Of a stretch of 64,000 bases of DNA, positions 356-59,465 are shown in pieces. The DNA comes from Tridacna crocea (Eukaryota > Mollusca > Bivalvia > Cardiida > Cardiidae). Within the stretch, counting starts at the first letter, position 1; each line of letters opens with the position of its first letter. A program made the position numbers and the translations under genes. Below the pieces are notes generated by a model. The model was not told the origin of the DNA. It saw only the letters and a list, made by a program, of their open reading frames with translations, and did no database searches. The stretch is taken from contig OX031065.1 in the NCBI GenBank assembly GCA_943736015.1, positions 32,502,427 to 32,566,426 of the forward strand, written 5' to 3'.

Positions 356-584
356 TTAACCCTTTACTCCACAGATACCCATTTCTACGCATTGCTTGCA
401 GGAGCCTTTGGAAAACATTGTAGCAAAAGGTGAAATTGCTTGTGACGAGCAATTTCACCTTTTGTCACAATGTTTTCTATGCTATCAAAAGGTATCATAT
501 ACACATAAGAAACTGCTACATCCTTGCTGTTATTTAGGGTCAATTAGAGATACCATAGAAATGCCTTATCGGGTAAAGGGTTAA
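356..584 (+). mobile_element. TTAA palindrome element, type B, full length
   Basis: TTAA at both ends, 229 bp. Ends read TTAACCCTTTACTCC and, inverted, TTAACCCTTTACCCG. The stem contains CAAAAGGTGAAATTGCT with loop TGTGACGAG, distinct from type A but at the same place in the element. Confidence 0.88.
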
Positions 585-5213: not shown

Positions 5214-5410
5214 TTAACTCTTTACTAAACAATCCCTGGTTTTTACAACCCAGAGAAAGAAGCATTCTGAAACCAGCATTTTCTCCTTTCCCATTATGTT
5301 TTCTTATCTTCTAAAGTCAAGCTTCAATTTTCCAGTCACGTTTATTTTCTATTCTGCAAATGCTTTCAATTTGGACAAGTCTAAAAGTTTGTCGTTTGGT
5401 AAAGTGTTAA
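5214..5410 (+). mobile_element. Type A element lacking the left arm
   Basis: TTAA at both ends. The left palindrome arm is deleted, leaving CTGAAACCAGCATTTTC. The right TTAA is shared with the next copy. Confidence 0.8.
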
Positions 5411-5635
5411 CCCATTACCACACAATCCCTACTTTCGACACCCCTGAGAAAGAAGCCATTAGAAAACATTGTGGGAAAAGGAGAAAATGCTGGTAACCAG
5501 CATTTTGTCTTTTTCCCACAATGTTTTCTACCCTTCACAAAACAAATTTCAATTTTTCAGTCACTGTTATTTTGTCATCTGCAAATGCTTTCGATTTGGA
5601 CAAGTCTAAAATAATGTCGTCTGGTAATGAGTTAA
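5407..5635 (+). mobile_element. Type A element, full length (229 bp)
   Basis: TTAA at both ends, palindrome nearly perfect; head-to-tail with the preceding copy. Confidence 0.92.
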
Positions 5636-7331: not shown

Positions 7332-8471
7332 TTTTTAGCTCCACTGGCTGAAGGCAAACAGGCTTATGCTATGGCCCGATGTCCATGGTTCGTCCGTCTG
7401 TCTCTCTGTCCGTGCATGTGTGCGTTCGTTTGTCTGTGCGTGCATGTGTTAACTTTTATTTCAAACATCATCTCTGAAACTACCCATTCAGTTTTGATGA
7501 AACTTCACAGATATGATCCTGCCATGGGCCTCTTCAGAATTTTTTGAAAGAATTTGATTCCTTCAAAAACTCTGGTTGCCATGGCAACAAAACTTAAAAA
7601 TACCAAAAATCATCTTTTCCAAAACCATAAGGCCTTGGGCTACCAAATTTGCCCTTAGCTTTATCTAGTGGACCTCAACTATGTTCCTTCAAATAATAGC
7701 TCTGGGGTTAAGTCAGGCTTATATTCGAAAAAACTCTAAGAATCTACTTGTACCTAACCATAAGATCTTGGACAACCAAATTTTGCATGTAGATTTATGT
7801 AGTTGGCATCTACCAAGAGGCCCAAATTATAGCTTTAGGGTCAAATCTGTCTCCACACCAGCAGTCACAAGTTTTACATGGGCTTTTGTGGTAAAAACTG
7901 TAAAAATCCTCTTGTTAAGGCTAAGGCTCGTAAATTTAGCCCTGTCTCAGGGTCACATGTTTTACAGGGCCTTTTAATGAAGAAACTTTGATAATCTTCT
8001 TGTTTATAACCACATATTCAGACCTGTTTTATTTAATACAAGGATTCAAGTAACTATAGCTTAGTGGTCAAAAATGGCTTTGCCATGGGACATAGGATTT
8101 CATTGAAAAAATTTGGTTTGCCATCCAGTTTGAAAGCAATTGGCCATTGTATTAACCAGCTACCACACAATCCCTACTTGACGCCCCTGAAAAAGAAGCC
8201 TTTTGAAACACTGTAGGAAAAGGAGAAAATGCTGGTAACCAGCATTTTCTCCTTTTCCCACAGTGTTTTCTACCCTTCCCAGAACAAATTTCAATTTTTC
8301 AAGCACCTTTATTTTGTCGTCTGCAAATACTTTCAATTTGAACCAGTCTAAAATTTTGTCGTGTGGTAAAGAGTTAACCAATTTGCCAAGTATTGTAATA
8401 TTTGTCTAGTAGTCACTAGTGTTTTGACTTATTAGCCAGCGAGCAATACAGGGCCATCATGGCCCTCTTGT
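7332..8471 (+). mobile_element. C1 element, complete, with a type A insertion
   Basis: Starts TTTTTAGCTCCACTGGC and ends GAGCAATACAGGGCC with the hairpin and CTTGTTC. The interior has GTCCGTC-like runs and paragraphs resembling the C1 copies at 41419-42888 and 57790-58512. A type A copy sits at 8152-8377. Confidence 0.75.
8152..8377 (+). mobile_element. Type A element inside C1
   Basis: TTAA at both ends; flanking C1 sequence CCATTGTA / CCAATTTGCC. Stem variant CACTGTAGG against CCCACAGTG. Confidence 0.88.
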
Positions 8472-8541
8472 TCTGTTAACTGTTCATCGAACAATCCAGT
8501 GCTGTTACCTCAATGGCAATAAAGTGTGTCTCAGCCAGGTA

Positions 8542-8770
8542 TTAACCCATTACCACACAATCCCCACTTTTGACGCCCTTGAGAAAGAAGCCTTTTGAAA
8601 ACACTGTGGGAAAAGGAGAAAATGCTGGTAACCAGCATTTTCTCCTTTTCCCACAGTGTTTTCTACCCTTCCCAGAACAAATTTCAATTTTTCAAGCACC
8701 TTTATTTTGTCGTCTGCAAATACTTTCAATTTGAACCAGTCTAGAATTTTGTCGTGTGGTAAAGAGTTAA
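8542..8770 (+). mobile_element. Type A element, full length (229 bp)
   Basis: TTAA at both ends, stem variant CACTGTGGG/CCCACAGTG fully paired; first unit of the 393-bp duplication. Confidence 0.92.
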
Positions 8771-8864
8771 CCAATTTGCCAAGTATTGTAATATTTGTCT
8801 AGTAGTCACTAGTGTTTTGACTTATTAGCCAGCGAGCAATACAGGGCCATCATGGCCCTCTTGT
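8771..8864 (+). mobile_element. C1 3' terminus, duplicated copy
   Basis: Repeats 8378-8471, ending GGGCCATCATGGCCC and CTTGTTC. Confidence 0.75.
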
Positions 8865-8934
8865 TCTGTTAACTGTTCATCGAACAATCCAGTGCTGTTA
8901 CCTCAATGGCAATAAAGTGTGTCTCAGCCAGGTA

Positions 8935-9163
8935 TTAACCCATTACCACACAATCCCCACTTTTGATGCCCCTGGGAAAGAAGCCTTTTGAAAACACTGT
9001 AGGAAAAGGAGAAAATGCTGGTAACCAGCATTTTCCCCTTTTCCCACAGTGTTTTCTATCCTTCCCAGAACAAATTTCAATTTTTCAGTCACCTTTATTT
9101 TGTCGTCTGCAAATGCTTTAAATTTGAACTAGTCTAAAATTTGGTTGTTTGGTAAAGAATTAA
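8935..9163 (+). mobile_element. Type A element, full length (229 bp)
   Basis: Second unit of the duplication; TTAA at both ends; the left arm changed to GTAGG. Confidence 0.9.
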
Positions 9164-9860: not shown

Positions 9861-10973
9861 TTAGCTCTACTGGCTTTCAGCCAGCAGAGCTTATGTCATG
9901 GCGTGGTTTCCGTCGTCCGTCTGTCCGTCCGTCCGTTAGTCTTTTTCTTGTTTACGCGATAAAGTCTTCATTTCTGGTCAGATTTTCGTGAAACTTACAC
10001 AGTATGTTTATCTCATCGATAGCTTCAACCCTTTTGATTTTGAAAAAAATCCAACAAACAGTATGGGAAAAGTAGCCATTTCAAGTTGAAAATTTTCATT
10101 TATTGTTTACGCGATAAAGTCTTCATTTTTGGTCAGATTTCTGTGAAACTTACACAGTTTGTTTATCTTATTAATAGCTTCAACCCTATTGATTTTGAAA
10201 AAAATCCAACAAATAGTATGGGAAAAGTAGCCATTTCAAGTTGAAAGCTTTCATTTCTTGTTTAAGCGATAAAGTCTTCATTTTTGGTCAGATTTCTGTG
10301 AAACTTACACAGTTTATTTATCTCATCAATAGCTTTAACCCTATTGATTTTGAAAAAAATCCGACAAATAGTATGGGAAAAGTAGCCATTTCAAGTTTAA
10401 AATTTCCATTTCTTGTTTACGCGATTAAGTCTGTACTTTTGGTCAGATTTCCATGAAACTTGCAGAGTTTGTTTATCTTATCAATAGCTTCAACCCTATT
10501 GATTTTGAAAAATATCCAACAAACAGTATGGGAAAAGTAGCCATTTCAAGTTGAAAATTTTCATTTCTTGTTTACGTGATAAAGTCTTCATTTTTGGTCA
10601 GATTTCTGTGAAACTTACACAGTTTGTTTATTTCATCAATAGCTTTAAGCCTATCAATTTTGAAAAAAAATCTGATAAGCAGTATGGGAAAAGTAGCCAT
10701 TTCAAATTGAACAATTTCATTGCCTGTTTACATGATAAAGTATTTATTTGTGATCAGATTTTTATGAATTTTTTAGCTTGTTTATCCCATCAATAGTTTT
10801 TTAACCCCGTTAAGTTCCAAAAAATTCAACAAACAGTAATGGAAAAGTAGCCATTTTGAGTTGAAAATGTCAACTTTTTTGTCTTTTTGCGTAACGAATT
10901 CCTATGTATGCTTTATTTAAAAGCAAACTCTCTGCCAGTAGAGCATATTCAGGCCCTTCAGGGCCTTCTAGTT
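9861..10973 (+). mobile_element. D element, complete, with about six 155-bp monomers
   Basis: 5' hairpin CTCTACTGGC-TTTCA-GCCAGCAGAG, then GTCCGTCCGTCCG. Monomers start at TGTTTACGCGAT 9949, 10104, 10259, 10414, 10569 and about 10725, a steady 155-bp period. 3' end GCCAGTAGAGCATATTC, hairpin AGGCCCTTCAGGGCCT, then CTAGTTT. It splits a type A palindrome. Confidence 0.8.
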
Positions 10974-11516: not shown

Positions 11517-11734
11517 CTTCCTTCCTTCTTTCCTTCCTTCCTTCCTTCCTTCCTTCCTTCCCTCCCTCTCTCCCTCCCTCCCACCTTCCCTCCTCATTCC
11601 TACCTTCCCTCCTTCCTTCCTTCCTTCCTTCCTTCCTTCCTTCCTTCCTTCCTTCCTTCCTTCCTTCCTTCCTTCCTCTTCCTTCCTTCCTTCCTTATTC
11701 TTTCCTTCCTTCCTTCCTATCTTTCTTCCTATCT

Positions 11735-14212: not shown

Positions 14213-14475
14213 TGGAGTGCAACACGCGAAAAGGGTCATTCGGACATTTGCGTAAAGTGTCGTCTCTGATCAGCGTGTGCAGTCCGTACAGGCTAATCCG
14301 AAACGACATTTTCCGATTTTATGTGATTTTCTGTGTTACGCAAGTCGACTGTAGCACAAAATCTAATGTAGTTGTAAAGTGCCGTCCCGGATTAGCCTGC
14401 GCGGACTGCGCAGGCTAATCCGGGACGACACTTTACGCAAATGTCCGAATGCACCTTTTCGCGTGTTGCACTCCA
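14213..14475. mobile_element. E element, TIR transposon flanked by TA
   Basis: 263 bp with long inverted ends starting TGGAGTGCAACACGCG; the arms extend about 50 bp to GTCGTC. TA on each side fits a Tc1/mariner-type target. The interior holds GGATTAGCCTG copies facing each other. No transposase frame. Confidence 0.8.
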
Positions 14476-14883: not shown

Positions 14884-15082
14884 GGGCCTGTATTCACCAA
14901 CCATTCTTGAGAATATTCTTAGTCTTATTCTCCAAGACTTTCTACATTTGTAAGTAACACAACTTCTGATTGGCTAAACCAAATGGTTTAGCCAATCAGG
15001 AGATGTGTAACTTACAAATGTAGAAAATTCAGGAGAATAAGACAAAGAATGTTCTTAAGAATGGTTGGTGAATATGGGCCCT
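14884..15082. mobile_element. F foldback element
   Basis: Two arms of about 85 bp, GGGCCTGTATTCACCAACC against GGTTGGTGAATATGGGCCC, meeting at a short loop beside GGCTAAACC/GGTTTAGCC. No open frame. Confidence 0.8.
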
Positions 15083-15330: not shown

Positions 15331-16284
15331 TAGCTCTACTTGCTGAAAGCCAGCTGAGCTTATGTCATGGCATGATTTCCGTCGTCCTTCCGTTAGTCTT
15401 TTTCTTGTTTAACCCTTTACCCCATAAGGCATTTCTATGGCATGTCTAATTGACCCTAAATAACAGCAAGGATGAAGCCGTTTCTTATGTGTATATGACA
15501 CCTTTTGATAGCTAGAAAACAATGTGGCAAAAGGTGAAATTGCTCGCCACGAGCAATTTCACCTTTTGCCACAATGTTTTCCAAAGGTTCCTACAAGCAA
15601 TGCGTAGAAATGAGTATCTGTGGAGTAAAGGGTTAAGCGATAAAGTCTGCACTTTTTTTCAGATTTCCATGAAACTTGCAGAGTTTGTTTATCTTATCAA
15701 TAGCTTCAATCCTATTGAAAAAAAGTCCAACTAACAGTATTGGAAAAGTAGCCATTTCAAGTTGAAAACTTTCTTTTCTTGTGTATGTGATAAGTCTGCA
15801 TTTGAGGTCAGATTTTCATGAAACTTGCATAGCTTGTTTATATGATCAATAGCTTAAACCTTTTTGAATTTGATAAAAAGCCAACAAACAGTATTGGAAA
15901 AGTAGCCATTTTAAGTTGAATATTTTCATTGCTTGTTTACATGATAAAAGTATTTATTTGTGATCAGATTTTGGTGAATTTTTCAGTTTCTTTATCTCAT
16001 CAATAGCTTTAACCCTGTTGACTTTGAAAACATCCAACAAACAGTAATGGAAAACTAGCCATTTTCTGTTGAAAATTTTGCTTTCTAATTTACATGATAA
16101 AGTCGGCATTTGTTGTTGAATTTTTATGAAACTTGCACAGTTGCTTTGTCTCATCAACAGCTGGAACCCTATTTATTTTGAAAAGAATCTGACAATCAGT
16201 ATGGGAAAAGTAGCAATTCAAAGTTGAAAATGTCCATTAATTTTTTTGTTTATGGGCGCTTTCCTTCACACTGATTTTACTGGT
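15331..16284 (+). mobile_element. D element, interrupted by type B
   Basis: 5' hairpin TCTACTTGCTGAAAGCCAGC, 155-bp monomers, and a type B copy at 15409-15636. The end CACACTGATTTTACTGG runs into a C1 element at the same point as the copy ending 30478. Confidence 0.75.
15409..15636 (-). mobile_element. Type B element, full length, in a D monomer
   Basis: TTAA at both ends. The flanks CTTGTTTAA and TTAAGCGATAAAG join to the uninterrupted monomer text at 10259-10275. Stem GGCAAAAGGTGAAATTGCT with a perfect partner. Confidence 0.93.
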
Positions 16285-19235: not shown

Positions 19236-19252
19236 CGTCCCTGGGTGGGCTC

Positions 19253-19303
<51 letters not shown>

Positions 19304-19309
19304 AGAGAC
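19236..19309 (-). tRNA. tRNA-Asn (anticodon GTT)
   Basis: Read on the minus strand it folds as a 74-nt cloverleaf. Acceptor stem GTCTCTG pairs with CAGGGAC, the D arm is in GGCGCAATCGGTTAGCGC, the anticodon loop is CTGTTAA with GTT at 19273-19275, and the T arm is GGTGG-TTCGAGC-CCACC. The discriminator base is G. A box (TGGCGCAATCGG) and B box (GGTTCGAGCCC) match pol III promoters. It looks identical to the usual animal tRNA-Asn, with no intron, so it is probably functional. Confidence 0.97.
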
Positions 19310-26290: not shown

Positions 26291-26432
26291 GCTGACAAAA
26301 AATGAACAAATTGTCCATGAATGCTATCTGTATACATGTATGAGTCTAAAATCTTATAATTAGCCAGAGAGTTAAGAAAAAAGTCTCATTTCTTCCAGGG
26401 ATTAATGTGTAGTCTTTGTCTTTTGTTTGCAG

Positions 26433-27131
26433 GTTAAAAAATACAGGGATAAATTTGACCCTCGTGTGACGGCAAAATATGACATTAAAGCACTCATTGG
26501 ACGAGGGAGTTTCAGTCGAGTTGTGCGTGTGGAGCACCGTCTGTCTCGACAACCATTTGCCATCAAGATGATTGACAGGGAGCAAGGCAAAGAGGTTTTT
26601 GAATCTGAGCTTGCGGTTTTACGACGTGTCAAGCATCAGTACATTATTCAACTTGTTGAAGTATTTGAAACAAAAGACAAGGTTTACATGGTGATGGAGT
26701 TAGCAACAGGAGGGGAGCTTTTTGATCGGATTATTGCAAAAGGAAGCTTCACTGAAAAAGATGCCACAAGAGTGCTAAGAATGGTTCTTGAAGGTGTGAA
26801 ATACTTACATGGGTTGGGTATCGCCCATCGGGATTTAAAGCCCGAAAATCTACTGTATTATCACCCAGGTCATGAATCGAAAATCATGATCACTGATTTC
26901 GGATTAAGTTCAACAATACGAGGGGACAGTTTACTACGAACAACTTGTGGTACCCCAGAGTATATAGCCCCTGAAATTCTTGCCCGAAAGCCCTATTCAT
27001 GTCAGGTAGACATGTGGGCAGTAGGGGTCATAACCTACATTCTGCTCAGTGGAACAATGCCATTTGATGATGAGAATCGGACAAGATTATACAGGCTCAT
27101 TTTGAAGGCTAAATACAGTTACGCTGGAGAG
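26433..27131 (+). CDS. PSKH1: PSKH1 exon 2: protein kinase catalytic core
   Basis: Acceptor TTTGTTTGCAG ends at 26432 and donor GTAATAC starts at 27132. Residues 60-292 read VKKYRDKFDPRVTAKYDIKA and on through the kinase domain. Visible motifs are the glycine loop IGRGSFSRV (81-89), the ATP lysine in FAIK (K104), helix C E118, the catalytic loop HRDLKPEN (D193, N198), DFG (D214), APE (238-240) and DMW (252-254). All catalytic residues are present, so an active kinase is expected. Identity to vertebrate PSKH1 is very high by eye. A C2 repeat begins about 30 nt after the donor. Confidence 0.97.
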
Positions 27132-27160
27132 GTAATACAAATACTTCTTTTCCATTTTTA

Positions 27161-28757
27161 GCTTACCTGAACAGGAAGTGCTCAAGGTGAGCTTTTATGA
27201 TCGTGCTGTGTCCGACATGCGTCATCAACTTTTACCTTGTGTACGCTCTAGAGGCCACATTTTTAACCCAATACTCATGAAACTTAGTCAACATCTTTGT
27301 CTCAATAGAATTGCAGAGGAGGTCGAAAATGGGTCATGTTGGGTAAAAAACTAGATCACTAGGTCAGATCTTAGAAAAACCTTGTGAACACCCTAGAGGC
27401 CACATTTTCAGTCATATACAGTCATGTACTCTTGAAAGTTTGTCTCAATGTTTGTCTTGATGATCTGTATGAGGTTTTTGAAAATGGGTCACACTGGGTC
27501 AAAAACTTAGGGCAAATCTTTAAAAAAAAGCTTTTGTACATTGTAGAGGCCACATTATCAGTCCAACACTCATGTAAAATGGTCAGATTGTTTGTCCTGA
27601 TGATATTTATGACGAGTTAAAAAAATGGGCCAAAAACTAGGTCACTAGGTCAAATCTTAGATAAATCTTGTGTAAGCTCTCGAGGCCACATTTTCTGTCC
27701 AAAATTCTTGAAAGTTGATCAGAAAGTTTGTCTGGATGATATCTTGGAAGAGTTTAAAAATAGGTCATGTCGGTCAAAAACCAGTTTAGCAGGTCAAATC
27801 TTAGGGAAACCTTGTGTAGGCTCTAGAGGCCACATTTACAATCCAGAACTACTGAAAGTTGGTCACAATCTTTGTCTTGATGATCTCTCAGATTTCTTAG
27901 AAAATGGGTCATGTCGGGTAAAAACTGGGTCACTAGGTCAAATCTTACAAAATCCTTTGTAAGCTCTGGAGGACACATTTTCAGGTCTATACTCCTGAAA
28001 CTTGGTCAGAATGTTTGTCTTGATTATGCCTTGAATGAGTTTAAAAATTGGTCATGTGGGGTTCAAAAGGGAAGTCATTGGGTCAGAAATTAGAAAAACC
28101 TTGTATATGCTCTAGAGGCCACATGTACTCATGTCAGTCATGTACTCTTCAAACTCTGTCAGAATATTTGTTTTTGTGATATCTTTAAAGAGTTTGATAA
28201 TGGAAAATGTGAGGAAATGTCGGTTCAAAAACTACATCACTTGGTCAGTTCTAAGAAAAATCTTTTCTACACTCTAGAGGCCACATGATGTTTATCATAT
28301 TATCATATCATATCATTCATTCCAATACTCATGAAACTTGGTCAGAATATTTGTCTTGGTGATATCTTAAAAGTGCTTGATAATTGGTATTGTCTGATTA
28401 AAAACTAGGTCACCAGGTGAGATCTTTGAAAAACCTTGTGTATGCTCTATTGAAATTGGTCAGAATATTTGTCTTGATAATATCTTGAAAGAGTTTGAAA
28501 ATTGATAATGTCAGATCAAAAACTTGGTCACAAGTTTGAATACCTTGTTTACTTTCTAGAGGTCTCATTTTAAATGCAATACTCACGAAACTTGGTCAGA
28601 TTGTTGGTCTAGCTCCAGTATGCAACTGGGTCATTTTGGGTCAATAACTCATGAAAATTTTTGTAGAATGTTTGTCATAATATCTCAAAATAGATGGAAA
28701 ATGGGTCATGTTTGGTCAAAAGGTGAGCGATTTCCAGGCCATCATGGCCCTCTTGTT
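27161..28757 (+). mobile_element. C2 element, complete, with about 145-bp monomers
   Basis: Starts TTAGCTTACCTGAACAGG and ends AGGTGAGCGATTTCC with GGCCATCATGGCC and CTTGTTTT. The monomers are marked by CTAGAGGCCACA near 27249, 27394, 27544, 27680, 27824, 27967, 28113 and 28274, spaced 136-161 bp. It begins 30 nt after the PSKH1 exon 2 donor. Confidence 0.8.
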
Positions 28758-33663: not shown

Positions 33664-33883
33664 GTAAACAGAAGACCCATCTTTTAGACTTTCTCAAAGT
33701 AAAAGTGCTTGTAGACAACAATTTGAATCTGACTTGATGGGATTTATCTATGGAAGGGTAAATTACATTTCGGTAAAAGGAGCAAATGCTGGTTTCCAGC
33801 TTTTTACTCCTTTTCCCGAAATGTTCCCAAAAGTCTTTGTTGTTACGGACATTGGCGTGGAATTTTTTGGTAAAGGATTATTA
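33664..33883 (-). mobile_element. Type A element with compensated stem changes
   Basis: Left arm ACATTTCGG (33765-33773) pairs with CCGAAATGT (33816-33824), where most copies have ACATTGTGG and CCACAATGT. Termini eroded. Confidence 0.75.
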
Positions 33884-34477: not shown

Positions 34478-34539
34478 TTCTTTACGAGACAATGATGTAG
34501 ACTTGTCCAAATTAAAGGCATATTCAGACAACAAATTAA
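34478..34539 (-). mobile_element. Type A left-end remnant
   Basis: GTAGACTTGTCCAAATTAAA and CAGACAACAAATTAA, ending at the TTAA of the next copy. Confidence 0.55.
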
Positions 34540-34764
34540 CCATTTACCACACAATGACAACTTTTAACACCCAGGATAGAAAAAGCTTTTGAAAACATTG
34601 TGGGAAAAGGAGAAAATGCTGGTTACCAGCATTTTCTCCTTTTCCCACAATGTTTTCTACCCTTTCAAAGAAAAACCATTTCATATGATCCACACTGAAA
34701 CTGTCATCTTCAAATGCTTTCAATTCGAACTGGTCTAAAATTCTGCTATATGGTAAAGGCTTAA
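34536..34764 (+). mobile_element. Type A element, full length (229 bp)
   Basis: TTAA at both ends; perfect inner palindrome with centre GGTTACC. Confidence 0.92.
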
Positions 34765-35793: not shown

Positions 35794-36022
35794 TTAACCC
35801 TTTACTGCATAAGGTATTTCTATGGTATCTCTAATTGACCCTAAATAAAAGCAAGGATGAAGCCGTTTTTTATGTGTATAGGATACCTTTTGATAGCATA
35901 GAAAATGTTGCGACAAAAGGTGAAATTGCTCGTCACGAGCAATTTCACCTTTTGCCACAAAGTTTTCCAAAGGCTCCTTCAAGCAATGCGTAGAAACGAG
36001 TATCTATGGAGTAAAGGGTTAA
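35794..36022 (-). mobile_element. Type B element, full length (229 bp)
   Basis: TTAA at both ends; stem CAAAAGGTGAAATTGCTCG with tip TCACGA; one base lost in the outer left arm. Confidence 0.93.
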
Positions 36023-36042: not shown

Positions 36043-36272
36043 CTAACCCTTTCCCAAACGACAAAATTTTAGACTGGTCCAAATTGAAAGCACTTGCAGA
36101 CGACAAAATTAATTTTACTCAAAAAGCAAAAATTGTTTCCAGCAGGGAGGAAAACATTGTGGGAAAAGGAGAAAAATGCTGGTTACCAGCATTTTCTCTT
36201 TTTCCCACAGTGTTTTCAAAAGGCTTGTCACTCAGGGCCGTAAGAACAAGGGATTGCTTGGTATTGGGTTAA
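36043..36272 (-). mobile_element. Type A element
   Basis: Left CTAA, right TTAA; near-perfect palindrome. Confidence 0.87.
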
Positions 36273-36415
36273 CCCTATGCTACACAACAAAATTTTGGAC
36301 CGGACCAAGTTCAGAGCATTTGCAGTTGACAAAAGTTACAAAATAAATGTGATTTAAAAACTGAAATTTGTTTTCAAACGAATAGAAAATATTGTGGGTA
36401 AAGGAGAAATGTCTT
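36269..36415 (-). mobile_element. Type A element, 3' truncated
   Basis: Shares TTAA with the preceding copy; ends inside the left arm at GGTAAAGGAGAAATG. Confidence 0.7.
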
Positions 36416-36618
36416 GTATGTTTTCATCCTCAAAAGTGATTGGTCTAGGAAAGTGAGCATCCAAAATTTCAGTATATATTAACAGGAATGACCAGAAAAC
36501 ATTTAAGTTTTGACATGACAATAAAGACACAGATAACAAAGGGAAATAATGAAAATATACATGTAGCACTGGTTTCTCTGGAAACAGCTGAGCAAATATT
36601 AAGTTCAGAATCTTCAAT

Positions 36619-36847
36619 TTAACCCATTACCACACAATCCCTACTTTTGACGGCCCTGAGAAAGAAGCCTTTAGAAAACATTGTGGGAAAAGGAGAAAAT
36701 GCTGGTAACCAGCATTTTCTCCTTTTCCCACAATGTTTTCTACCCTTCACAAAACAAATTTCAAATTTTCAGTCACTTTTATTTTGTTGTCTGCAAATGC
36801 TTTCAATTTGGACCAGTCTAAAATATTGTCATTTGGTAATGGGTTAA
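36619..36847 (+). mobile_element. Type A element, full length (229 bp)
   Basis: TTAA at both ends, perfect 71-nt palindrome; very close to the family consensus. Confidence 0.95.
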
Positions 36848-37513: not shown

Positions 37514-37633
37514 TGATTTCTGCTTGAAAGGGTAGAAAACACTTGGGGGAAAAAAAAAGAGAAAAAGCTGGTTACCAGAATTTTCTCTTTTTCCAAAAAC
37601 GTTTTCAGGGTCCATTCTTGCCAAGGTCATTAA
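37510..37633 (-). mobile_element. Type A element, 5' deleted
   Basis: Left terminus replaced; hairpin AGAGAAAAAGCTGGTTACC; TTAA at both edges. Confidence 0.65.
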
Positions 37634-37841
37634 CTCTTACCAAACAACAAATTTTTTGACAGGTCCAAATTGAGAGCATTTGCAAACGACTAAATAAATG
37701 TGACTGAAAAGTTAAAACTTGTTATGGGAAGGGTTGAAAACATTCTGGGAGAAAATGCTGTTTACCAGCATTTTCTCCTTTTCCCAGAATGTTTTCTAAA
37801 GCCTTCTCTTTCAGGGTCGTCATTGTGTGGTAAAGAGTTAA
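37630..37841 (-). mobile_element. Type A element with compensated stem change
   Basis: ACATTCTGGG pairs with CCCAGAATGT (G to C with C to G in the partner). The left arm lost AAAAGG. TTAA at both ends. Confidence 0.87.
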
Positions 37842-38174: not shown

Positions 38175-38403
38175 CTAAACCCATTACCACTCAATCCCTA
38201 CTTTTGACGACCCCGAGAGAAGCCTTCGGAAAACCATGTGGGAAAAAGAGAAAATGCTGGTAACCAGCATTTTCCCCTTTTCCCACAACGTTTTCTACCC
38301 TTCACAAAACAAATTTCAAATTTTCAGTCGGTTTGATTTTGTCGTCTGCAAATGCTTTGGATTTGGACAAATCCTAACATTTTGTCATTTGGTAATGAGT
38401 TAA
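38175..38403 (+). mobile_element. Type A element
   Basis: Left CTAA, right TTAA shared with the next, oppositely oriented copy. Confidence 0.88.
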
Positions 38404-38610
38404 CTCTTTACCAAACAACAAAATTTTACACTGGTCCAAATTGAAAGCATTTGCAGATGACAAATCAAAATTTGTTTTAGGAAGAAAAGAACACAATGTG
38501 AGAAAAGGAGAAAATGCTGGTTACCAGCATTTTCTCCTTCACCCAGAATGTTTTCAAAAGGCTTCTTTCACAGGAGTATTTAAAGTCAGGATTGTTTGGT
38601 AAAGGGTTAA
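38400..38610 (-). mobile_element. Type A element
   Basis: TTAA at both ends; short deletion after GACAAATC. Confidence 0.88.
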
Positions 38611-41418: not shown

Positions 41419-42888
41419 AACAAGAGGGCCATGATGGCCCTGTATCGCTCCACTGGCTTTTTAACCCTTTACCACACAAATTGAAGTGTTTATGACCATG
41501 AAAAAGAGGGCCTACAAAAACAATGAACACTGTCGGGCAATACAAGCACGTTAATTCATTAGCATGAAAGGTAAACTCCTTGAAAAAATAAGCTGAATGA
41601 TAGAAACCTTACTCTTTATTCATCTCATGTGAGCATAACTATTAGCATCAAAATGAATCACACTTGAAAACAGAATATTTTCTATCAAAAAACTTAATGT
41701 TTAATCAATGCAGTTTGATAATCAAGGGAGGTAAATAGTACCAAACTTTATCTTTCATAAAAAGAGTTATTTCCGTTGATTAATGTTTAAATCGAAGTGA
41801 CTATATTTTGAAGCCCATGTTAAACTTGTGATCCCTGGATGGAGCCAATTTTGACCCGAAACCTACAATATGAAACTAGAATGTGTGGTTATAAACATGA
41901 AGATATTTGAATCTTGCCCAATAAAAAGCCCTGTAAAACAAGTTTGCTCAATAAAAGGCCCTGTAAAATATGTGACCCATGAGACAGGTTTAAAAGCCAA
42001 TGTAAAACCTGTGACCCCTGGGGTGGGGGTCAAACTTGACCCCCAAAGTTAAAATTTGGGCCCTCTTTGTAGAGGCCCATTAGATAAAGCTACATGCAAA
42101 ATTTGGTAGCCCTAGGCCTTATGGCTATATACAAGTAGATTATTAAAGTTTCCCTATATAAGCCCATGTAAAACTTGTGACCCCCTGTGATGGGGCTAAA
42201 TTTGACCCCAGGGCTATAATTTGGGCACCCTTGGCAGAGACCCCCTAGATAAAGCTACATGCAAAATTTGATAGCCCTAGCCCTTATAGCTAGGTACAAG
42301 AAGATTTTGAAAGTTTTCTCTATATCAGCCCATGTAAAATTTGTTAACCCCCGGGGGCGGGGCCAAATTTGACCCCTGGACTATAATTTGGACACCCTTG
42401 GTAGACGTCCACTAGATAAAGCTACATGCCAAATTTGGTAGCCCTAGGCCCTATGGCTAGGTAGAAGAGGAATTTTAAAGTTCTCCCTAAATAAGCCTAT
42501 GTAAAACTTGTGAACCCGGGGGCGGGGCCAATTTTGACCCCAGGGCTATAATTTGAAGAAACTTGGTAGAGGTCCTTTAGATAAAGCTACATGCAAAATT
42601 TGGTAGCCCTAGGCCTTATGGTTTCAGACAAGAAGATTTTCAAAGATTTTCAAAATTTTTCAGTTTTGTTGCCATGGCAAGCAGAGTTTTTGAAGGAATT
42701 AAATTATTTCAAGAAATTCTAAAGAGGACCATGGCAGGATTATTTCTGTGAAGTTTCATTAAAATTGGATGGGTAGTTTCAGAGAAGAAGATGTTTAAAG
42801 AAAAAGTTAACGCACGGATGGACAGACGCACAAGGGACAACGGGCCATGACATAAGCCCGCTGGCCTTCGGCCAGTGGAGCTAAAAGC
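41419..42888 (-). mobile_element. C1 element, complete, reverse orientation
   Basis: 3' end AACAAGAGGGCC with hairpin GGGCCATGATGGCCC and GTATCGCTCCACTGGC at the left; 5' hairpin CTGGCC-TTC-GGCCAG and GAGCTAAAA at the right. The body has four or five paragraphs marked by GATAAAGCTACATGC, about 130 bp apart. A type A end is captured at 41461-41520. Confidence 0.8.
41461..41520 (+). mobile_element. Type A left end captured in C1
   Basis: TTAACCCTTTACCACACAAA joined to the C1 terminus, the mirror of the junctions at 6737 and 7029. Confidence 0.65.
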
Positions 42889-45244: not shown

Positions 45245-46165
45245 TCTAGAGGCCATACTTTCAGTCAAATACTCCTGAAAGTTGATCAGAATGTTTGTCT
45301 TGATGATATCTCAGACAAGTTGGAAAATGGATAATGTCAGTTCAAAAACTAGGCCATTAGGTCAAATTTAAAAAAAAAAGCTGTGTACGCTGTTGAGTCC
45401 AATACTCATGAAACTTCGTCAGAATATTTGTCGGATGATATCTCAAATGAGTTAAAAAATGGGTCATCTCAGGTCAAAACTTAGGTCAATATAAGGTCAA
45501 ATCTTAGAAAAACTTTGTGTACCTTCTAGAAGCCACATTTTCAGTTCATTACTCTTGAAAATTGGTCAGAATATTTGTCTTGCTGATTTCTTGGAGAAGA
45601 TAAAAAATGGGCAATGTTTGGTCAAAAGTTAGGTCACAAGGTCAAATCTTAGAAAAACCTTGTGTGCACTTTAGAGGGCACATTTTTAGTCCAGAACTGT
45701 TGAAAGTTTGTTAGAATGTTTGGTAGAATGTTTGTCTTGATTTTATCTCGCACAAATTTGAAAAAGGGCTTTGCTGGTTCAAAAACTAGGTGACTAGGTC
45801 AAATCTTAAAGTCTTGAGTATGCTCAAGAAGCCATATATTCTGTCCAATACTCCTGAAATTTGGTCAGAATGTTTGTTGTTATTATATCGCAAAAGAGTT
45901 GGAAAGTGGGTCATGTGGGGTAAAAAACTAGGTCACTACAGTAGGTCTAATCTTTGAAAAACCTTTTGTACACTCCAGAAGCCAAATTTTCAGTCAAATG
46001 CTCATTAAAGTTGGTCAGAATAACTGTCATAATATTAGCTTGGAAGAGTTTGAAAATGGGTCAATTTAGGTCAAAAACTAGGTCACCATGTCAAATCTTA
46101 GAAAAACCTTTTGCAAGCTGTAGAGGCCACATTTTCAGTCCAATAATCATGGACTATTTTTGCAA

Positions 46166-46547: not shown

Positions 46548-46776
46548 TTAACCCATTACCACACGAGAAAAATTTGGACTCGTCCAAATTGAAAGCATTT
46601 GCAGACGACAAAATAAAGGTGACTGAAAAATTGAAATTTGTTCTGGGAAGGGTAGAAAACACTGTGGGAAAAGGAGAAAATGCTGGTTACCAGCATTTTC
46701 TCCTTTTCCCACAGTGTTTTCAAAAGGCTTCTTTCTCGGGGGCGTCAAAAGTAGGGATTGTGTGGTAATGGGTTAA
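46548..46776 (-). mobile_element. Type A element, full length (229 bp)
   Basis: TTAA at both ends; stem CACTGTGGG pairs fully with CCCACAGTG. Confidence 0.94.
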
Positions 46777-48293: not shown

Positions 48294-48540
48294 TTCACCC
48301 TGTACTACACAATCCAAAGTTTCATGAACTTAGAGAAGAGATGTTTGAAAACATATTTCGAAAAGGAGAAAACCCTGGTTTCCTTGGTTTTCTCCTTTTC
48401 CCATACTGTTTTCTGCTTTTCGAAAGACAGCTCTCATCATGTGAGCTAAGGTTGAGTTTTTGTCTGTAATTATGCTTTCATTTACAGAATGAAGAGTCTG
48501 AAGTGTGTGTGTTACCCTTTGAATGGTGAAAGAGTCAACT
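48291..48540 (+). mobile_element. Type A element with compensated stem changes
   Basis: AAAAGGAGAAAACC pairs with GGTTTTCTCCTTTT where the consensus has ATG/CAT next to the tip. Termini are eroded. Confidence 0.7.
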
Positions 48541-49587: not shown

Positions 49588-49795
49588 GTTTTACCCTTTC
49601 CGAAATAACAAAATTTTTACTAGTCCAAATTGACAGCACTTGCAGACAACATTTTAAGTTTGCAAATTATATTTTACTGTGGAAGGTTAGAAAAGATTTA
49701 GAAAAAGAGCAAATGCTAGTTACTTGCATTTGCTCTTTTTCCAACGACATTTAAAAAGACTTTGTTTTCAAGGTCATGACTACTTGGTAAGATTT
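49588..49795 (-). mobile_element. Type A element with compensated stem changes
   Basis: AAAAAGAGCAAATGC pairs perfectly with GCATTTGCTCTTTTT; the consensus is AAAAGGAGAAAATGC. Two paired positions have both changed. Confidence 0.75.
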
Positions 49796-49798
49796 GTT

Positions 49799-50031: not shown

Positions 50032-50575
50032 CGCACCTCACCTGAGCACAAAGTGCTCAGAGTGAGCTATTGTGATCACTCACTGTCATCCATCCATCCA
50101 CATTTCTTTCTTTACACTATAGCATCTACAATTATCAACCAATCAGCACCAAACTTGGTCAAAATATATGTCATAAGATCTCTGATGAGTTCGATTATGG
50201 ATTATGGATCTAAAACATCTGACTAGAACATCTGGAGTTATTTGCCCTTGAATTAGAAAAATTGCTATATTGCACTTCGTTTACACTCCAGCATCTACAA
50301 ATATCAACCAATTAGCGCCAAACTTGGTCAAAATATATATTACCATAAGACCCCAGATGAGCTGATTATGGGTCTAATCGGACCGGAACATCTGGAGTTA
50401 TTTGCCCTTGAATTAAAAAGATTGCTATATTTCACTTTGTTTATACTCTAGCATCTACAAATATCAACCGATTAGCACCAAATTTGGTCAAAGTATATAT
50501 TACCATAAGATCTTGGATGAATTTAATTATGGGTACAATCGGACTAGAACATCTTTAGTTATTTCCCCTTGAACA
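50032..50575 (+). mobile_element. C3 element with 160-169 bp monomers
   Basis: CACCTGAGCACAAAGTGCTCA hairpin region (split), monomers marked AGCATCTACA at 50121, 50290 and 50450. The 3' end is lost before the D fragment. Confidence 0.65.
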
Positions 50576-58776: not shown

Positions 58777-58829
58777 TCAGTTTGATTTCACAGTAATACC
58801 TTACTTTTGTATTTTTTGTTTATTTTCAG

Positions 58830-59189
58830 CACTGGAAGGACATATCCACATTAGCGAAAGATTTCATCGATAAATCCCTAGTCTTAAACCCAAATGAGAG
58901 GATGAACGCAACAGAGGCGTGCCATCATCCTTGGATTACCTCGATGGCCGCAAGTGCCAGCAACAAGAACTTGCATCGGACAATTAGTCACAATCTATTG
59001 CAAAGACAGTCTACTCGCTCCAGGGCAAACAGTTCAAAGAGTAATAAATCTACTAAGTCCACCAAATCAAACAAGTCTAACAAATCAGCCCGTTCTCTCA
59101 GGTCTGAGCATCGGCGAGTTCAGCACGAGGAGATTGAAGCTCTACATCGGGATCCAGAAGTTCAAGCAGACCTTGCATCCTTAGGCTAA
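58830..59189 (+). CDS. PSKH1: PSKH1 exon 3: end of kinase lobe and Ser/Lys-rich tail
   Basis: Acceptor TTATTTTCAG ends at 58829. Reading starts HWKDISTLAKDFIDKSL, includes the subdomain XI arginine (ERM, R316) and HPW (325-327), then MAASASNKNLHRTIS as in PSKH1. Residues about 350-385 are a low-complexity Ser/Lys/Thr run (SNKSTKSTKSNKSNKS), also found in the vertebrate protein. The stop is TAA at 59187-59189. The acceptor is only 53 nt downstream of a type A element (58550-58776). Confidence 0.95.
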   Translation, partial: HWKDISTLAKDFIDKSLVLNPNERMNATEACHHPWITSMAASASNKNLHRTISHNLLQRQSTRSRANSSKSNKSTKSTKSNKSNKSARSLRSEHRRVQHEEIEALHRDPEVQADLASLG

Positions 59190-59289: not shown

Positions 59290-59465
59290 AACCAAACATT
59301 CTCAAGAACCTCTCAAGATTTTCGAAATTTGAAAGTTACACAACTTCTGGTAGGCTTAGCAATTTGGTTTAGCCAATCATAGGATGTGTTACTTTTAAAT
59401 TTAGAAAATGTTGGAGAAAAAGACTAAGAATGTTCTAAAGAATGGTTGGTGAATACGGATCCCAG
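59290..59465. mobile_element. F foldback element
   Basis: CCAAACATTCTCAAGAACC arm and GAATGGTTGGTGAATACGG arm; third copy of the family. Confidence 0.65.

Follow-up and report, generated by a model that had tools for sequence, protein, structure and literature searches.

A 67-bp palindrome as a possible DNA amplification device, with arms that change together in spreading lineages, in an abundant TTAA-bounded miniature transposon of Tridacna crocea

Human Made1 and fish Angel are foldback-type miniature transposons (MITEs), short elements that fold on themselves through their inverted ends, and Made1 is connected with mir-548. In this study, we analyzed a 64,000-base stretch of Tridacna crocea DNA, referred to below as the window, in which a reading made from the sequence alone had pointed to a palindrome with many copies whose arms appeared to change together. 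The passages of PMC10813416 that treat the ends of piggyBac elements describe TTAA and the 5' motifs CCCTT, CCCAT, and CCCTC, and those of PMC11707139 on piggyBac and piggyBat describe short palindromes near the ends that are held by paired C-terminal domains. MITE-rich genomes are known in bivalves, according to the relevant part of PMC10294476.

A profile was seeded with six full-length copies and then iterated on the window. The resulting consensus spans 228 positions between TTAA borders and carries inverted ends (TTAA-CYCWTTACCA... on the left and ...TGGTAAWGRG-TTAA on the right) and a central palindrome. This core is a perfect palindrome of 67 bases, in which two 33-bp arms pair at 33/33 positions around a 1-nt centre, and its pairs are numbered here as k, counted outward from the centre. 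In the 41 copies spanning both profile ends, the left TTAA was present as T in 40, T in 41, A in 41, and A in 38 copies, and in the same type of end-to-end copies (41) the right TTAA was present as T in 41, T in 41, A in 39, and A in 38. The first base after TTAA was C in 37/41 of these copies, the second was C in 13 and T in 25, and the third was C in 41/41; the consensus start is CCCTT in family B and C[C/T]C[T/A]T in family A, as defined below. Its length, inverted ends, TTAA borders, and very high copy number are those of a MITE, and the TTAA target-site duplication is that of piggyBac. The element is therefore a TTAA-bounded miniature transposon, piggyBac-like as judged by its ends. Because its borders are TTAA, the mobilising enzyme is likely a piggyBac-type transposase, as predicted from sequence. 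Several of the 15 open reading frames of at least 110 aa in the window overlap MITE copies, and none is confined to the element or explains it. A search of the open literature, as distinct from subscription papers and repeat libraries, found no published description of the element. A scan of IMG/VR with a 29-letter core pattern gave 0 matches, and a 17-letter core pattern gave 19 single candidate matches. MITE copies abut in 20 pairs, arranged either head to tail or tail to tail. Many of these pairs have a single TTAA in common (for example, at 5215-5635, 36044-36417, and 38178-38609) and look like insertions of one copy into the TTAA border of another.

The iterated profile search identified 111 non-overlapping copies in the window, which cover 20,098/64,000 bases (31%). 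We also sampled the genome (1,048,827,098 bases, 31 contigs) in 20 stretches of 10 kb, placed at round coordinates on 11 contigs (L028-L047). These stretches contained 235 copies, which occupied 41,605/200,000 bases (20.8%, bootstrap 15.6-26.4%), were found in 19/20 stretches, and had a density of 8.8-14.6 per 10 kb. The load of the window exceeds the bootstrap range of the sampled stretches. Extrapolation gave a genome total of ~1.2 million copies, fragments counted, and the genome-wide count of the perfect 67-mer with T at its centre is 26,428, compared with 0 for its reversed control. About a fifth of the sampled DNA is one MITE, an unusual load for a single family.

The window has further features of its own. 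PSKH1-type kinase exons at 26406-27161 and 58797-59189 (+), ~31.6 kb apart, have 55 of the 111 copies between them, split 28 to 27 between the two orientations; the exon at 26406-27161 encodes a protein kinase domain, and its named relatives in Mya, Ruditapes, and Mactra are 91-92% identical. An unrelated GC-rich palindrome at 14374-14437 has 31-bp arms (GTAAAGTGCCGTCCCGG...) and a centre near 14405. Another palindromic repeat is present in two copies, related by eye, at 14923-15043 and 59314-59414, with 50-60-bp arms and centres near 14983 and 59364. A tRNA gene was matched at 19236-19309 (-) with 68.4 bits in Rfam. Tandem arrays with units of ~130-165 bp lie at 9944-10868, 15659-16238, 27544-28124, 41994-42651, 45263-45722, and 50106-50573, and a CTTC microsatellite of ~54 units at 11517-11730 is the source of the skewed composition near 10-12 kb.

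Table 1. Copies of the element in the window that are referred to in the text.
Feature	Coordinates	Strand	Remark
Old MITE copy with the reported palindrome	33669..33880	+	Profile match; arms and centre at ~33761-33828
Near-consensus full-length copy	36620..36847	-	Top profile score, 244.3; palindrome at 36674-36740 perfect, 33/33 pairs
Two-sided k24 G>C, with 6 bp deleted from one arm	37630..37840	+	Quoted earlier at 37739
k3, k11, and k15 changed in both arms	49593..49797	+	Quoted earlier at 49698; 23% of 30 readable pairs broken
Two-sided changes at k6 and k7	48297..48504	-	Quoted earlier at 48361; 24% of 33 pairs broken
Young member of the k26 T>C (CACTGTGGG) subgroup	46548..46775	+
Tandem triplication, 393-bp unit, three k26-subgroup copies	8149..9163	-	Outside flanks shared
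Family B copy; k8, k13, and k20 in both arms, k3 one-sided	357..584	-
Family B copy; k3, k8, k13, and k20 in both arms	15409..15635	+
Family B copy; k3, k8, k13, and k20 in both arms	35794..36021	+
Perfect stem, flank 30% off consensus, separate flank lineage	34537..34764	-

The arm pairs quoted in the sequence-only reading are present in the sequence at 33765, 37739, 49698, and 48361, and the CACTGTGGG group that it had singled out corresponds to k26 T>C in both arms. The examples at 33765, 48361, and 49698 belong to old copies, in which roughly one pair in four is broken. In the lead copy at 33669-33880 (the one quoted at 33765), both arms carry k23 T>C and k24 G>T, 24% of the 33 pairs are broken, and the flank is 35% off consensus. 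Across 397 copies, k24 G>C was found in both arms only at 37630..37840 (7 copies have it on the left only and 3 on the right only), C at k11 in both arms only at 49593..49797, and the both-arm combination of k6 and k7 only at 48297..48504.

Paired change was counted in 65 window copies with at least 28/33 columns on each arm, family B and the k26 lineage included. Their pair cells comprised 1760 consensus, 285 one-sided, 46 two-sided complementary, and 23 other cells, and 2000 column shuffles of this set gave a mean of 11.9 two-sided cells and a maximum of 24. Under a stricter null, in which each copy's own divergence was kept and family B, two tandem duplicates, and pair k26 were excluded, 36 two-sided changes were observed in 76 window copies versus 22.5 expected (sd 4.2); by age, the 32 young copies had 5 versus 0.91 and the 44 older copies had 31 versus 21.8. 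At partner offset 0, we counted 65 co-deviations versus 47.6 (ratio 1.37), and the other 16 offsets, from -8 to +8, gave ratios of 0.74-1.18. Elsewhere in the genome, 148 copies had 4057 consensus, 589 one-sided, 102 two-sided complementary, and 53 other pair cells, and 137 A-like copies showed 47 two-sided changes versus 35.4 (10 versus 2.3 in young copies, 37 versus 33.7 in old ones). Combined, 101 young copies had 15 two-sided changes outside k26 versus 2.9 expected, spread over 14 copies. Covariation of mirrored flank columns (k38, k43, k63, k64) reached p<0.01 in 4/35 mirrored pairs, k26 among them, versus 3% of other flank pairs. The results demonstrated that the arms co-change beyond chance, chiefly among young copies and in the differences from one family to another. 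In the old copies, where the profile alignment may conceal indels, most two-sided cells are attributable to chance and one-sided change dominates. The earlier claim that the arms change together thus stood in the comparison with chance (46 versus 11.9; 36 versus 22.5) but had to be weakened in its extent, as one-sided changes are about six times as frequent as two-sided ones and old copies are near chance.

Retention of the stem relative to the flanks, the other part of that claim, was borne out, with identity to consensus in the 65 window copies of about 90% for the stem and 77.6% for the flanks. We then separated divergence of the source lineages from decay after insertion, taking half of the arm mismatch as decay since insertion, on the assumption of a perfect palindrome at insertion, and subtracting it from the divergence. 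By this estimate, the source lineages had diverged by 0.019 in the stem (from 68 window copies). The corresponding values were 0.160 and 0.185 in the flanks (from 56 and 59 window copies), and in the terminal repeats they were 0.108 for the outer part (41 window copies) and 0.129 for the inner part (45 window copies). The stem/flank ratio of source divergence was 0.10 [0.05-0.16] in 60 window copies, 0.06 [0.03-0.10] in 128 copies elsewhere, and 0.07 [0.04-0.10] in the 187 combined. The palindrome sequence, and not pairing alone, is conserved.

For resident copies, the slope relating flank divergence to stem decay was 1.43 [0.99-2.18] for the window copies and 1.37 [1.07-1.73] for the combined set; without copies whose flank divergence was >0.45 it was 0.89 [0.67-1.26], an estimate biased downward by the truncation. 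Slopes greater than 1 may reflect either slower stem decay or the descent of older copies from older sources. On a tree of 163 copies fitted to the flanks, terminal changes per site were 606/66 for the stem and 1704/115 for the flank, and internal changes per site were 78/66 and 536/115, respectively. We read resident stem decay as proceeding at roughly 0.6-1.0 of the flank rate, on evidence looser than that for the source constraint. In 34 young copies, singletons per cell were 0.0204 in the stem and 0.0197 in the flank, and the shared-change ratio was 0.26. The stem/flank singleton ratio varied with the sample, at 0.42 (16 copies), 0.55 (23), 1.02 (34), and 0.81 (subsamples of 24), and the contrast of singleton with shared changes (1.04 versus 0.26) was dropped as evidence because the singleton ratio depends on sample size; we rely on the subtraction of arm mismatch described above.

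The copy at 34537-34764 combines a perfect stem with a diverged flank. Its 107-bp flank has 39 other places that are 86-90% identical (among 40 scored of 2224 candidates), with matches covering all or nearly all of the 107 bp. Five of these relatives were fetched, and four align within 0.2 in the flank. One of their stems matches the consensus except for two changes; a second differs from it by a single change and is truncated at one end; a third carries one change and is missing the centre together with nine bases of one arm; and the fourth is decayed. This is a lineage with a diverged flank and a retained stem, and because it has many flank relatives, in-place renewal of one core is not a sufficient explanation.

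Families A, AB, and B were set by the flank alone, and all come from one genome; an initial definition of AB by stem states was rejected as circular, k26 not being uniform, and was replaced by the flank-only definition. Consensus flank distances were 0.36 for A-AB, 0.60-0.61 for A-B, and 0.61-0.62 for AB-B. Family B has 13 copies, and the nearest non-member flank is no closer than 0.49. Its stem carries TT at k8 in 13/13 copies, TT at k13 in 13/13, CC at k20 in 10/13, and CC at k3 in 9/13, the remainder being one-sided or decayed (k20 is one-sided in 3/13), and k21 is a multi-copy one-sided exception, with A on the left in 6/13, a paired A in 1, and no change in 6. Family AB is known from four copies only, with flanks 0.09-0.14 apart, which have TT at k8 in 4/4, CC at k3 in 3/4, and CC at k26 in 2/4 (one-sided in the other two). 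Relative to A, the stem is therefore changed on both sides at k3, k8, and k26 in AB and at k3, k8, k13, and k20 in B. Two extra copies (L046/901-1129 and L043/1584-1805) have the k8 pair and flanks unlike those of A, AB, and B.

The k26 (CACTGTGGG) subgroup is largely one lineage. For 17 carriers from the window and the sampled stretches, tandem duplicates left out, 37/85 nearest flank neighbours share k26 T>C versus a base rate of 17/199, and 4/17 carriers have no such neighbour. Three of the eight window k26 copies belong to the single tandem triplication of a 393-bp unit, and across 397 copies C at k26 was one-sided in 29 and two-sided in 19. Seven loci were fetched for their resemblance to the lead copy, and its right-arm variant CCCGAAATGT was found in 4/7 (L021, L022, L026, and L027), in stems that are otherwise near-perfect. 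The left arm has a paired T at k24 together with T at k23 in three of the four, and a paired C at k23 with k24 unchanged in the other; in our reading, the T at left k23 fits CpG decay of C. Two of the four loci are 1% apart in the flank and the others 34-46%. Since the flanks are this far apart and the loci were picked by similarity, we have only moderate confidence that the lead copy's right-arm variant was inherited. The largest two-sided groups are inherited. The sequence-only reading had also considered that compensated pairs might trace to a few master copies, and this was found for B and AB, largely for k26, and probably for the lead copy; the 15 other two-sided changes in 14/101 young copies may be inherited or newly arisen.

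Two other ideas on the arms and the centre were tried and rejected. The right terminal repeat resembles the arm in family A (p 0.026) and does not in B (p 0.88), so that the arm was not kept as a candidate copy of the terminal repeat. At the centre (profile column 140), most A copies have T and ~10% of the young ones have A, whereas B has C or G. A complement swap at this column would be consistent with an inverted palindrome, but the flank sites are equally variable; T>A at the centre was significant against stem sites, 2/63 flank sites were equally extreme, and the carriers showed no flank clustering. In a wider set, the frequency of change at the centre base is similar to that at variable flank sites.

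Taken together, we consider it fairly probable that the palindrome is kept by selection among spreading copies and that the paired arm changes are mostly inherited from sources. We infer that the conservation reflects selection, that the palindrome acts in mobilisation as DNA, and that a piggyBac-type enzyme moves the element. Copies would need the palindrome, as DNA, to amplify, whether as a symmetric protein-binding site or as a hairpin extruded in transposition or replication. Paired changes would arise in source lineages and pass to daughter copies, and once inserted, a copy would be free, its arms decaying mostly one at a time and near the flank rate. Selection for transposition, which was among the explanations first offered, fits best because the constraint is seen in spreading lineages and not in resident copies. 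Several observations weigh against this explanation. The left-only k21 change in 6/13 and the one-sided k20 in 3/13 family B copies indicate that sources tolerate some broken pairs; the lower bound of the slope (1.07) and the terminal-branch counts permit somewhat slower decay of resident stems; the two-sided changes in young copies (15 versus 2.9) may not be inherited; one-sided C at k26 outnumbers two-sided C; and AB comprises only four copies. The wider proposal, that a MITE occupying roughly one fifth of the genome relies on its internal 67-bp palindrome as a DNA amplification device whose arms co-evolve in spreading lineages, is tentative, and we regard it as possible and short of probable.

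Other explanations account for parts of these results. Resident arms may correct each other through hairpin-templated repair or template switching, giving two-sided changes and reversions. The process is documented in RNA genes, in the part of PMC8794818 that concerns them, and both the two-sided excess in the 101 young copies and a slope that permits slower stem decay would agree with it. However, if unbiased, correction would touch ~14% of stem mutations (~12 excess events by hand arithmetic), a bound that comes from 183 deviating arm cells in young copies, 30 of them within two-sided changes. Correction at each transposition would keep the arms matched and let the pairs drift neutrally, and could not produce the low divergence of the source lineages: B and A differ at only 4/33 pairs with flanks ~60% apart. 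In addition, inversion of the centre base, a mark of arm correction, is not distinctive against the flank sites. Mutual correction had been put forward in the sequence-only reading, and as the main process it is not supported, given the ratio of one-sided to two-sided changes of ~6:1 and the conservation of the sequence itself; correction in place is at most a minor process, and we consider it unlikely as the explanation. Selection of the palindrome as an RNA hairpin, yielding small RNAs or a structural RNA, had been suggested as well. One strand of the MITE does fold into a long hairpin by itself (z -11.75 with single-strand DNA parameters, copy 36620..36847), but in 205 resident copies G·T and A·C mismatches were equally frequent (240 versus 242, p 0.96), with no G·U tolerance and therefore no sign of selection on one RNA strand; this comparison covers resident copies and says little on RNA action in source copies. 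The family differences at k3, k8, k13, and k20 are pair flips and not G·U routes, and tRNA was the only Rfam family at the gathering threshold in the window. The suggestion was not supported by these data, and an RNA role is improbable.

Ectopic gene conversion between copies might homogenise the core while the flanks drift, and the occurrence of the lead copy's right-arm variant at four loci with widely diverged flanks, apart from one near-identical pair, would be in line with this. But the copy with a perfect stem and a diverged flank has many flank relatives, so that lineage explains it, broken stems persist in old copies, and the B and AB stems remain distinct within one genome, which leaves conversion an improbable account too. 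The two-sided changes might, at the simplest, reflect chance and shared descent alone, with a few recent perfect masters and coincidental double changes picked by eye. In its favour, the old copies are barely above the null (31 versus 21.8 in the window, 37 versus 33.7 elsewhere), and most of the k26 group reduces to one lineage and a tandem triplication. It does not explain the excess at partner offset 0, and flanks are ~60% apart between families whose stem was kept and changed in pairs; we judge it very improbable.

If selection among spreading copies does maintain the palindrome, a copy that lacks it, as hairpin or as symmetric site, would be a dead end. The element would also contain a built-in clock, as arm mismatch dates the insertion if the palindrome was perfect at that time. 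With about a million copies, such a clock would split the constraint on sources from the decay of dead copies, and the role of a MITE hairpin in spread would become testable. If the palindrome is required in cis, it would be a second recognition element beside the terminal repeats, and this requirement may help to account for the huge numbers of a non-autonomous element.

Compared with known systems, the element differs from Made1 and Angel in that it has a separate central palindrome between flanks that are mostly non-complementary. REPINs, bacterial REP doublets that form hairpins, offer a parallel in logic, as far as the pertinent part of PMC3116915 describes them; they are bacterial and tied to RAYT tyrosine transposases, whereas the host here is a bivalve, and the element is not counted as a REPIN, nor is kinship in sequence claimed. 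Template-switching hairpins resemble it in that two-sided stem changes are predicted, as set out in the part of PMC8794818 noted above, but the resident stem mutations seen here mostly remain one-sided and the sequence is conserved. The element is like piggyBac-type MITEs in its TTAA borders and short inverted ends, which start with CCCTT in B and with C[C/T]C[T/A]T in A, and unlike them in its mid-element 67-bp perfect palindrome, which is more constrained than the terminal repeats. Like the transposase sites of piggyBac and piggyBat described in PMC11707139, it places symmetric DNA within a TTAA element; there the palindromes lie near the ends (19 bp in piggyBac, 14 bp for the innermost of piggyBat), whereas here a single long one, a putative site, lies near the centre. 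By analogy with these sites, a symmetric transposase-binding site would be one concrete possibility for the palindrome, and an extruded hairpin would be another.
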